From: Clostridium sp. 12(A)
Lineage (GTDB): Bacteria; Bacillota; Clostridia; Lachnospirales; Lachnospiraceae
Assembly (NCBI GenBank): GCA_000526575.1
Contig: JAGI01000002.1
Coordinates: 3,324,501 to 3,388,500, forward strand
Direction of reading: 5' to 3'
Length of the DNA stretch: 64,000 bases
This document shows positions 50,990 to 55,161 of this stretch, in pieces. Position numbers and translations under genes: made by a program. Every line of letters starts with the position of its first letter. The first letter of the stretch is position 1. The notes under the pieces were generated by a model that ran no database searches, was not told the DNA's origin, and saw only the letters and a list, made by a program, of their open reading frames with translations.

Positions 50990-51454
50990 ATGAGCGACAC
51001 AGTTTTACAGATAGAGCGGTTAGTAGATGGAACCGTTGGGGTAAATGATAATGTAATTTTTGATTCCATTGTGGTTATATCTGAGTCCGTCAGCTATAAC
51101 AGCGCCACCGGTACCATAACTTTGCTTCAACCGGGTAGATATGAATTTGACTGGTGGGTAGACACCCAATCTTCTGCATCCTCTAATGGTGTGGGCTTTG
51201 CTCTTGTATCATCTCAGGGGGACCTCCTTGTAGGCAATTCACCTATAAAGACAGGTGAGGTTGTAGGTGTGGCCATACTTGTAGTCAATGAAGTACCTGT
51301 TACGGTAGAGCTTAAAAATAACAGTACAGCGGAAGTGTATTATCCCACGATAGTCCCAGTCAAAGCAACACTTGTAGTGATTGGCGGGGAGGGTTCCGGT
51401 GGAACTGGCCCGACTGGCCCAACAGGAGCAACTGCTCCGTTAAACTTGTGGTAA
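50990..51454 (+). CDS. N-terminal exon of a collagen-like surface protein (interrupted gene)
   Basis: ATG at 50990 after AAAGGAGAAGGATATC. The 154-residue product has a beta-rich domain of about 135 residues (FDSIVVISESVSYNSATGTITLLQPGRYEFDWWV) that looks like a TNF/BclA jelly roll. It then begins collagen triplets, [14 protein letters not shown], and stops abruptly as LNLW. The stop lies just inside the recombinase element: the core GTTAAAC (51439-51445) is in the same frame as the core before body 2 at 53461. Joined, they give one open frame of 718 residues (152 plus 566). As it stands the protein is truncated. Confidence 0.75.
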   Translation: MSDTVLQIERLVDGTVGVNDNVIFDSIVVISESVSYNSATGTITLLQPGRYEFDWWVDTQSSASSNGVGFALVSSQGDLLVGNSPIKTGEVVGVAILVVNEVPVTVELKNNSTAEVYYPTIVPVKATLVVIGGEGSGGTGPTGPTGATAPLNLW

Positions 51455-51456
51455 GA
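51428..51456 (+). other. attL of the recombinase element
   Basis: GCTCC-GTTAAAC-TTGTGGTAA, with the core at 51439-51445. The left arm belongs to the interrupted gene, the right arm to the element. Together with 53446-53470 it predicts attB GCTCC-GTTAAAC-GGAGC (a palindrome around a central A) and attP CATAA-GTTAAAC-TTGTG (also near-palindromic). Confidence 0.7.
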
Positions 51457-51655
51457 ATCAAAAAAATATTATGATAACTTCTTAAAATAAAGACAAAATA
51501 CTCATATATGAAAAACAATACACAATATATTCAGACTATTTATCCGTACAACATCTGATAAAATAACATGAATATGTCGAAATTTAAGGTAGGAATCTAT
51601 CTAAGTAGACAACTATAATTGCATATGGTTAATAAAGAACGTTAAGGCAGTTAAT

Positions 51656-51835
51656 ATGAGTAAAGGTCATCTAAAAGCGGTCTCTGGTTTTAAAGAGGAG
51701 GGTAGTGAATTCAAAAAGCTATTTACCATTACTATTTTAAACTATCTAAAGTCCAATGATTATATCTTAAAGAACCCTCAAAACAAGAAAAATCTTTCTG
51801 CAGGCATAAGTTGTATTGAAGACGAAAAGGAGTGA
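51656..51835 (+). CDS. 59-residue protein of unknown function upstream of the recombinase
   Basis: ATG at 51656 (AAGG about ten bases upstream) to TGA at 51833-51835, ending 4 bases before the recombinase ATG, so co-transcribed. The product begins MSKGHLKAVSGFKEEGSEF and is rich in Lys and Glu, with a possible helix around KKLFTITILNYLKSNDYIL. I do not recognise a family. Its size and position match small recombination directionality factors such as the 58-aa SprB of SPbeta; that role is a guess. Confidence 0.55.
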   Translation: MSKGHLKAVSGFKEEGSEFKKLFTITILNYLKSNDYILKNPQNKKNLSAGISCIEDEKE

Positions 51836-51839
51836 TAGA

Positions 51840-53444
51840 ATGATTGTTAACGATAACCGTACCAGGTCAGAGCTTAGTAAATTCAGAAATGAATACAGAG
51901 TTGCTGTTTATTTAAGGCTATCAAAGGAAGACGAATCAATCGGTCAGTCCATTAGTATTGAGAACCAAAGAAATATTTTAATCCAATACATACTTTCACA
52001 GGGCTGGACTTGTTATCAGGTATATATTGATGACGGATACTCAGGTTTGCGTTTTGACCGCCCCGGATTTTTACGGTTATTAGGTGATATTGAAAGTAAA
52101 AGAATCAATTTAGTTATAACAAAAGATCTGTCACGATTAGGACGTGATTATATAGTGACCGGTTATTATCTGGAACGGTACTTCCCGGAAAAAAATATCC
52201 GATATATTGCTTTAAGTGATGGCATAGACACCAGTGCTCCAGGCAGCGTCAGTGATATTGGACCGTTCAAATCTCTTTTAAATGACATGTACGCAAAAGA
52301 TATTTCAATGAAAATCCGTTTTGTATTTGATGAAAAAAGAAAAAGGGGCCAGTTCATTGGTGCGTTTGCCCCTTACGGATATTTAAAGGACCCTGATAAC
52401 AAAAATAAATTAATTGTTGACCCCTATGCCTCGGCCATCGTGAAACGTATGTACAATCTATATATCAATGACAACAGCATGGGCGCCATAGCTAAAATCT
52501 TAAACGAAGAAAATATTCCCTCCCCCATTGCTTACAAAGAGACCTTCTGTAATTATAAAAACAAGAGGACCGATCGAAGGTTATGGAACCAGGGAATGGT
52601 AAAAAATGTATTTACAAATCCAACCTATCTGGGCCATATGGCACAAAGAAAATCAGAAAAAATTAACTATAAAACAAAGAAAATGAAGAACTATAAGCAA
52701 TCAGAATGGATTATAGTTGAGAATACGCATGAACCTATCATTGATCAGGAGCAGTACAATTTAGTACAAAAATTAATGGATAAAAAGACAGTTCTTTATG
52801 GGAGAAAGAGCGGAGCAAAACATCTTTTAAATGGGCTTGTGTATTGCAAAGAATGTGGTTCTAAGCTCACTTATAAACAGATAAATGGAAAACATAAGAT
52901 GAACTGTATGACTTATTTAAGACACGGAAAAAGCTATTGCTGCAGTCATTATATTGATGAAGAAACCCTGGATTCATTCATTGTGGAGGAGCTTAAAAAA
53001 ATCGCTTTAAAAGCATTACCCAATGATTTTTATAAGCAATTTGGCACTTTAGAAAAGAAGGAAAAAGCGGATATGTACAGTGGTGAGCTGGTTCAGCTGG
53101 AGAAAAGACGTAAGGAAATTCAGACCTTTATGAAAAAATTATACGAGGATAAGGTTAATAAAATCATAACAAATGATACTTTTATCACACTCATCAATGA
53201 CTATATTAAAGAAAAGGAAAATGTAAACACACGATACGAACAAATGAAAAAATTGCAGCAGGTGCTGAACTCAAACAACCAGGATAGTGAGAACTATAAA
53301 AAGGTTCTTACAGATATTATTCAATTCGAAACACCTGACAAAACCATTTTAACTCAATTAATTGAAAGGATTGAAATAGATAAAGATAGGAATGTCTTTA
53401 TACATTATAATTTCAAGAACCCTTTTACGGAAGAACAGAAGTAA
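51840..53444 (+). CDS. Large serine recombinase
   Basis: ATG at 51840 follows AAAAGGAGTGATAGA. The 534-residue protein has a resolvase catalytic domain ([24 protein letters not shown], with the nucleophile S28 in LRLS; later [11 protein letters not shown]), a recombinase domain ([29 protein letters not shown]), a zinc ribbon ([23 protein letters not shown]) and a C-terminal coiled coil. It should catalyse integration or excision at the flanking att sites. Its last 53 bases overlap the open frame leading into collagen body 2. Confidence 0.93.
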
Positions 53445-53445
53445 A

Positions 53446-53478
53446 GTACATAAGTTAAACGGAGCCACCGGTCCGACG
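53446..53478 (+). other. attR of the recombinase element
   Basis: GTACATAA-GTTAAAC-GGAGCC, with the core at 53454-53460, directly after the recombinase stop. The right arm GGAGCC opens the collagen body. TTA AAC is read in the same frame as TTA AAC at 51440-51445 of the N-terminal exon. Confidence 0.7.
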
Positions 53479-55161
53479 GGGGCAACAGGACCAACGGGAG
53501 TTACTGGACCGACGGGATTGAGCGGCCCAACAGGAAATACCGGTCCATCAGGAGCCACTGGCCCGACAGGAGATACCGGCCCAACAGGAGCGACTGGTCC
53601 ATCAGGAGCCACCGGTCCAACGGGAGATATCGGCCCAACAGGAGCGACTGGTCCAACGGGAGATATAGGCCCGATGGGACCCACCGGTCCAACAGGAGAT
53701 ACCGGTCCAACAGGAGCTGCCGGTGAAACAGGAGCCACTGGCCCTACTGGTCCTACAGGTTTGGCTGGAACAACCGGTCCAACAGGTCAAACTGGTCCGA
53801 CAGGAGCGACCGGCCCGACAGGAGATACTGGCCCGGCAGGAAACACTGGCCCAACCGGTGATACTGGAGTCACTGGCCCGACAGGAAATACAGGTCCAAC
53901 CGGAGCCACCGGTCCAGCAGGAGAGACCGGCCTGGCGGGAGCCACCGGTCTAACAGGATCGACCGGCCCGACGGGAGATATAGGTCCAACCGGAGCCACC
54001 GGTCCAGCAGGAGAGACCGGCCTGGCGGGAGCTACCGGTCCAACCGGAGCCACCGGTCCGACAGGAGCCACCGGTCCGGCGGGAGCTAACGGTCTGGCAG
54101 GAGAGACCGGATCGACAGGAGCCACTGGTCCAACAGGAGCCACTGGCCCAACGGGAGCCACTGGTCCAACCGGAGCCACTGGCCCAACGGGAGCCACCGG
54201 TCCAACCGGAGATACCGGTCCGACCGGAGCGACAGGTCCGACAGGAGTCACAGGTCCGACGGGAGTGACCGGCCCGACAGGAGTCACAGGTCCGACAGGA
54301 GCCACTGGTCCGACCGGAGCCACCGGCCCCATAGGGGACACTGGCCCGACGGGAGCCACTGGTCCGACCGGAGCGACCGGCCCAACGGGAGCAACAGGTC
54401 CAACAGGAGATACCGGCCCAACCGGAGCGACAGGTCCGACAGGAGTCACAGGTCCGACGGGAGTGACCGGCCCGACAGGAGTCACAGGTCCGACAGGAGC
54501 CACGGGTCCGACCGGAGCCACCGGCCCCACAGGGGACACTGGCCCGACGGGAGCCACTGGTCCGACCGGAGCGACCGGCCCAACGGGAGCAACAGGTCCA
54601 ACAGGAGAGACCGGCCCAACCGGAGCGACAGGTCCAACCGGAGCGACAGGTCCAACCGGAGCGACAGGTCCAACCGGAGAGACCGGCCCAACCGGAGACA
54701 CTGGTCCAACGGGTATTGGACCGACCGGAGCAACCGGTCCGACAGGGGATACTGGTCCAACGGGAGCCACTGGTCCAACAGGGGCAACCGGACCAACCGG
54801 AGCAACTGGTGATACAGGACCAGGCATAACTGTTTTTGGAAATGTATTTACACCATTGGCAGAGGACTCCGAAACAGCAGTATTATTATCAGGAGATGTT
54901 CTTTTTAGTAATAACGGGGTCTTGCAGGGAATTACCCATACACCTGGTACTGCACCTATAACAATAGAGCAAACTGGCGTATATAAGATTAATTATAGTA
55001 TTTCAATAAGCAACAATATTGACGCTACGGTCACCATAGCCGTTAACGGAGTAGATGTTAATTCTGCTGCCGTTCCAACTGAGATAATGGTGGGCACATT
55101 CTCTAACTCAATTATACTAAGTCTAACAGCAGGGGACGTAATTACTCTAAGAATTGAGTAG
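53461..55161 (+). CDS. Collagen-repeat protein body 2 (3' exon of the interrupted gene)
   Basis: From the att junction the frame reads [14 protein letters not shown] and continues with about 150 Gly-X-Y triplets. It then has a C-terminal non-repeat domain of about 110 residues ([24 protein letters not shown] to [10 protein letters not shown]) of jelly-roll character. The open frame extends back to an ATG at 53392, but that start lies inside the recombinase gene and has no ribosome binding site. Translation most likely depends on fusion with the exon at 50990. A block near 54231 is repeated at 54429 (198 bp apart). A spore or exosporium location is inferred from BclA-like features. Confidence 0.75.

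Follow-up and report, generated by a model that had tools for sequence, protein, structure and literature searches.

A candidate serine-recombinase intervening element in a BclA-like collagen gene of Clostridium sp. 12(A)

The split gene and the segment within it

The stretch of DNA considered here (the window: 64,000 nucleotides of Clostridium sp. 12(A), assembly GCA_000526575.1, contig JAGI01000002.1, forward-strand positions 3,324,501 to 3,388,500) carries a BclA-like collagen gene that is divided in two by a segment of about 2 kb encoding a large serine recombinase. Coordinates are those of the window, and all parts of this locus are on the + strand. The first part, the head gene (50990..51454), encodes 154 amino acids that comprise a BclA-like jelly-roll domain and the first collagen triplets, and it ends in GATAPLNLW followed by a stop codon. 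The second part, body B (53455..55161), is a headless collagen body of 568 codons counted from a short core sequence shared with the head, in which Pfam recognizes Collagen (222.7 bits) and BclA_C (59.9 bits, cut-off 38).

The core, GTTAAAC, is present twice, at 51439-51445 and 53454-53460, on the same strand and in the same codon phase. The upstream copy lies in an attL-like site, GCTCC-GTTAAAC-TTGTGG (51434..51451), of which the genome has a single perfect copy, and the downstream copy in an attR-like site, CATAA-GTTAAAC-GGAGC (53449..53465). Joining at the cores removes 2,015 bp (51446..53460), and the head joined in silico to body B forms one restored frame of 718 codons with 0 internal stops. 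A first-pass annotation, made from the sequence alone, had proposed this arrangement; its coordinates for the head, the twin cores, their common phase and the spacing are exact, and the uninterrupted frame of 718 residues is as it described. The empty site, which it likened to a palindromic attB, has a dyad symmetry of 24/35 over 35 bp (P 5e-5 versus random 35-mers), while the parental sites attL and attR have 10/35 and 14/35. The circle junction, also said to be near-palindromic, is symmetrical to a marginal degree, since its value is 16/35 (P 0.04).

Two genes are found between the cores, as had been suggested. The larger (51840..53444) encodes a protein of 534 amino acids with Resolvase, Recombinase and zinc-ribbon domains, all above Pfam cut-offs, and so qualifies as a large serine recombinase. 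The smaller is a 59-amino-acid open reading frame (ORF) at 51656..51835, a candidate recombination directionality factor that is kept in 5/5 loci. It is preceded by a TGCATATGGTT block (51620..51630) that is invariant in 5/5 sequences and may represent a -10 element. The segment thus encodes a site-specific recombinase and sits within a coding sequence, and no phage gene lies inside it.

Upstream of the head is another headless collagen body, body A (48443..50662; 739 codons, in phase with its core). Its body-side site, GTTAAAC-GGAGC (48442..48453) with ACATAA just before, is a perfect match to that of body B. There is no head, 7 codons are open ahead of the core, and comparison reveals no clear element remnant ahead of the body. 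Pfam recognizes Collagen only; the body has a C-terminal domain of its own that lacks a Pfam match. Joined in silico to the head, body A gives an 889-codon gene on a 2,997-bp circle. A scan of the whole genome (3 contigs) finds 2 perfect body-side sites and 1 perfect head-side site, and further hits at 2 or 3 mismatches are either the same sites on the opposite strand or scattered.

The array in related genomes and its conservation

The comparison covered 25 genomes of the genus, including that of the window strain (G000). An orthologous recombinase is present in 5/25, each time at a collagen array, the other four being 77-96% identical to that of the window; among the remaining genomes the best match is at most 44%, or there is none at E 1e-60. 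One array locus belongs to Lacrimispora aerotolerans ([Clostridium] aerotolerans DSM 5434), whose attL core is altered, and another to L. algidixylanolytica SPL73, which carries a 219-bp form of the element. An element is present and the excisable geometry is kept in all five genomes, which are of the Lacrimispora type, and every head-body join made in silico across them is open (8/8).

The composition of the array differs among the five. G023, which belongs to the same species as the window, has three bodies: bodies 1 and 2 come first, then the head and the recombinase, and last body B. In G001 two contigs are involved: a headless body 1 lies near glnK/amt at the end of one, and the other, which is short, carries a body tail, the head, the recombinase and body B. 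In G002 and G010 the upstream unit has decayed but retains an intact recombinase and small ORF (and, in G002, a head fragment); its body-side core reads GTTGAAC, its head-side core reads CATACAC in G002, and its body is cut down to two ends. Their downstream unit consists of head, attL, 219 bp without a recombinase, attR and body B, with both sites intact. The 219-bp stretch of G002, the one that was compared, matches both ends of the window element and is thus a deletion derivative of it.

The silent bodies seen in full are all open and in phase from the core to the C-terminus (3/3). The start of body A resembles that of G023 body 1, and in the tail body A shares 87% identity with the silent tail of G001 and 64% with that of G023 body 2; silent bodies therefore vary among strains. 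The ancestral locus probably consisted of two or more units in tandem (head-attL-small ORF-recombinase-attR-body), different parts of which have since been lost in different lineages; as a result, a single recombinase per genome probably acts on all sites of the array. The first-pass annotation envisaged a minimal single element, and the size of about 2 kb agrees with this, but the spare headless bodies and the 219-bp form were overlooked; the locus is thus more than one minimal element on one gene.

A comparison with related genomes for an uninterrupted allele had been proposed, and none was found at the collagen locus among the 25. The nearest uninterrupted head, in G003 (69% identity), is on a 13.9-kb contig that stops within the collagen tract and on which no other array genes were found. 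In the window genome itself, five paralogues run from head into collagen without interruption, with open frames of 600-1146 codons, which speaks against the idea that the two halves are always separate genes. As the first-pass annotation stated, the head stops after LNLW and, by eye, body B has no well-placed ribosome site; its frame does, however, contain an in-frame ATG at 53392, within the recombinase gene. The corresponding frame has no ATG in G023 and G001, where a GTG is found two codons ahead of the core (by eye), and in G010 and G002 it has an ATG four codons ahead of the core.

Selection was assessed by the Nei-Gojobori ratio of nonsynonymous to synonymous divergence (dN/dS), excluding pairs with fewer than five changes, whose ratios scatter from 0 to 0.71. 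The recombinase has values of 0.07-0.12 in all ten pairs, and in pairs with at least 10 changes those of the head are 0.08-0.11 and those of the body B tail 0.07-0.10. Values are 0.22-0.29 for the small ORF (deeper pairs) and 0.23-0.30 for the silent body tails. Tests against neutrality used rounded counts, with P given per single comparison out of eight. They depart from neutrality for the recombinase (G010-G002, P 2e-16), the head (G000-G001, P 8e-10), the silent tail, which includes that of body A (G000-G001, P 1.6e-5, with fewer amino-acid changes), and the small ORF (P 0.003 and 0.012). Judged from the sequences, the head, the body, the recombinase and the small ORF are all under purifying selection, and this constraint accompanies the paired sites, the shared phase, the open joined frame and the conservation in five genomes.

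Two further points bear on how the recombinase is used. Between G000 and G002 its synonymous divergence is 1.68, far above that of the head (0.56), the body B tail (0.38) and glnK (0.72), which is explained most simply if there was an ancestral pair of paralogues and each lineage retained a different one. In G002 and G010 a constrained recombinase is found beside a recombinase-less 219-bp element, and this gives the strongest evidence for excision being useful and feasible in trans; the recombinase of the neighbouring unit would then act on the 219-bp element in both genomes.

Relatives of the recombinase and links to sporulation

A scan with the recombinase alignment yielded, from a larger number of matches, 80 listed loci, of which 77 have more than 100 bp of 3′ flank and 3 end too soon. 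Neighbours were called within 900 bp behind the recombinase, and sigK 3′ ends by a short motif. On this basis 54/77 listed relatives border on pieces or neighbours of sigK, pdaB, spoIVA, cotJB, cotJC or a transpeptidase gene. The sigK flanks account for 28 (21 3′ ends and 7 on the opposite strand), followed by PdaB (9), SpoIVA (7), CotJB on the opposite strand (6), CotJC (3) and an L,D-transpeptidase (1), while collagen accounts for 2; the names CotJB and CotJC are our presumptive assignments. For PdaB, SpoIVA, Mn-catalase and sigK the name of one representative each comes from NCBIfam, which also finds transpeptidase and SleB domains at L079. One sigK 3′ end that was checked matches model positions 208-226 (E 0.002) and an opposite-strand sigK piece matches 18-213, which fits the cutting of both at one place. 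The neighbour is not always cut, as cotJC at L124 has its own start; at L077 a 5′ cotJC piece adjoins the recombinase in the opposite orientation, and a motif search of the available flanks did not find the missing 5′ parts at the SpoIVA and PdaB loci. Long collagen runs near the element occur at 2 of the 80 listed loci, both Lacrimispora, and L136 has a short run far away.

A tree of 43 selected recombinases from these loci shows clustering by target, with 10 label changes versus a shuffled mean of 29.8. The collagen-locus recombinases group with two cotJC-side ones (98/91) and with all three (100/98), so that their nearest relatives are recombinases beside a cut cotJC; the Lacrimispora sigK recombinase sits on a very long branch, and its position is unsure. 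The family spans Clostridia and Bacilli (L076-L153) in target-specific clades, many members having a similar-looking small ORF just upstream. A loose rule yielding one small ORF per locus gave 65, of which 29 were chosen by eye, so that their shared look is a selected one. A phage origin of the element was considered and rejected, as a weak scan of viral_contigs, with two peptide patterns only, found no relative of the recombinase. Exact scans of the same collection matched the circle junction in 23 stretches and the empty site in 2; none of these 25 encodes a head, a recombinase or a long collagen run, and the matches are for this reason taken as chance.

The structure model of the head (mean predicted local distance difference test score 84.5) has the F-BclA and BclA C-terminal domains as its nearest PDB entries, and the predicted fold thus matches BclA. 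Together with BclA_C in body B, this agrees with the BclA-like protein named in the first-pass annotation. Upstream of the head gene is a promoter motif, AC-17-CATANNNT (50857..50883, + strand), resembling what we take to be the sigma-K consensus. It is located 133 bp before the split heads (5/5) and 130 bp before the uninterrupted G003 homologue, and is present in 10/39 head upstreams (500 shuffles: mean 1.6, maximum 6).

The sigK gene of this genus is itself often divided. Among the 25 genomes its two pieces are on one contig in 19 and on two contigs in 3, one piece only was found in 2, and none in 1. A recombinase gene lies between the pieces in G000, the genome looked at in this respect. 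There, about 4.2 kb splits sigK (G000:C2:984631-989406, L211) and contains, besides a serine recombinase, a 436-codon frame that resembles an alpha-galactosidase. An overlapping region has four large serine recombinase genes in 10 kb (G000:C2:976392-986041), the last within the sigK element.

Proposed developmental excision and competing readings

Genes already known to be interrupted by such elements include sigK, spsM, spoVFB, gerE, yabG and kamA. The spsM gene is reportedly split by SPbeta, a prophage or prophage-like element, and rebuilt in sporulation. A similar sporulation-linked rebuilding is described for vfbin in spoVFB and yin in yabG (PMC10747680) and for phi3T in kamA (PMC6957869), again with prophages or prophage-like elements, unlike the element here, which has no phage gene. 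The gin element in gerE of Bacillus cereus is described as non-phage, with 28.6 kb, three recombinase genes and a GirX of 42 amino acids (PMC5595907). As in gin, a serine-recombinase element splits a coding sequence, with a short shared core and a small directionality factor (a candidate here), but the present element is about 2 kb or 219 bp, its target is a collagen gene and there are spare 3′ bodies. In Clostridioides difficile, skin excision from sigK in the mother cell needs both the large serine recombinase CD1231 and CD1234 (PMC5025042). This pairing with a small factor resembles the candidate pairing here; the skin target is regulatory, the element prophage-like, and the accessible part of that report does not mention spare 3′ parts.

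By analogy with skin and gin, it is probable that the window holds a minimal sporulation-gene intervening element of about 2 kb, which splits a BclA-like spore-surface gene and is excised when the cell sporulates. The recombinase and the 59-amino-acid protein, as directionality factor, would recombine attL with attR in the mother cell, freeing a 2,015-bp circle and yielding the protein of 718 residues, while the germ line would keep the split form. The first-pass annotation had reached the same kind of reading, which the geometry, the open joins, the BclA-like features of head and body B, the sporulation-gene kin and the split sigK support; its picture of one element and one gene is incomplete.

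Several observations weigh against such excision. No excised junction or circle was seen, and a search of the 25 genomes for the body-side pattern with up to 3 mismatches turned up no joined site. The G001 head-side core reads GTTTAAC (L050 1540-1546), the reverse complement of the usual core, versus GTTAAAC in its attR, with the rest of the site conserved; this may be an inactivating change, flipped polarity or a sequencing error, and the mismatch may block exchange. The sigma-K-like motif is limited to those ten of 39 upstreams, and no recombinase promoter was identified. No recognised sporulation gene lies within 900 bp behind 21/77 listed relatives. Kinship of the 59-amino-acid ORF with the other small ORFs is not significant: in a profile of the 29 ranked over 411 entries the best entry is a decoy, G010 is 2nd, G001 3rd and G002 8th, and the window ORF is outside the best 14 of 411.

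How the spare bodies fit is a separate matter. We narrowly favour their being relics of lost units (bodies A, 1 and 2), body B alone being used, which is compatible with excision in sporulation. Some body-side sites have changed (a GTAGC arm in G023 body 2, GTTAAAT in G001 body 1), silent tails evolve faster (0.23-0.30 versus about 0.08 for the body B tail), and a join to an upstream body would place the new gene on a circle. Such decay is harder to reconcile with the open frames of the silent bodies and with the constraint on the silent tail between G000 and G001, part of which could predate the loss of heads. Alternatively, and tentatively, as we consider it somewhat doubtful, the one head-side site may recombine with any body-side site of the array in sporulating mother cells. 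Exchange with body B would delete 2,015 bp, and exchange with body A would release a 2,997-bp circle holding the head upstream region and the 889-codon gene, leaving an attP-like scar. The mother cell dies, and destructive joins would therefore cost nothing, so that the spores of one clone could differ in their collagen coats; the germ-line array would be unchanged, with the choice among cassettes by a serine recombinase restricted to a terminal cell. In the two relatives, a trans-acting recombinase would run the 219-bp non-autonomous element.

Reversible on/off phase variation in growing cells would use the same geometry and could accommodate the lack of an identified recombinase promoter, but it is unlikely, as all five assemblies are split and kin recombinases adjoin sporulation genes. 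A dead insertion that left head and body decaying, with which the lack of observed excision and the G001 core mismatch would agree, is highly improbable in view of the low dN/dS of both halves and the recombinase, the open joins in all five genomes and the sites retained in G002 and G010 after recombinase loss. Two separate genes with their own signals are unlikely because the bodies have no conserved start before them and uninterrupted head-collagen paralogues exist.

The best reading is a known kind of sporulation-gene intervening element in a new target, with one head and several bodies. A literature search (listed titles and abstract openings, with most subscription journals outside it) found no collagen gene interrupted in this way, and within the same scope no spare 3′ bodies and no recombinase-less version described for such elements. 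Shufflons also have a constant N-terminus and several C-terminal parts at recombination sites, inverted by a tyrosine recombinase. The array resembles them in its one constant N-terminus and several possible C-terminal parts bounded by sites, and differs in its direct repeats, its serine recombinase and its putative switching. With BclA-type exosporium proteins it shares the collagen triplets, the BclA-like fold and BclA_C in body B; unlike in those proteins, a BclA-like fold is also N-terminal, ahead of the collagen tract, and the gene is split. If excision occurs, developmental DNA rearrangement by an element of about 2 kb would extend to a structural spore-surface collagen gene, within a recombinase family found mostly beside sporulation genes in the loci examined. 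The 219-bp form, served by a neighbouring unit, would be a step towards a host-owned system, and the question is raised of whether, in mother cells, one head and several bodies give rise to alternative coats.

Two other features may be mentioned. A more distant recombinase of the window genome (L043, 38%) has no visibly cut gene by eye. Downstream of body B, on the - strand (55279-63974), are tandem paralogues of DUF7948 plus SBBP beta-propeller proteins (two checked by Pfam), of which one copy seems to be divided into two shorter frames (57463-58536 and 58741-59601).

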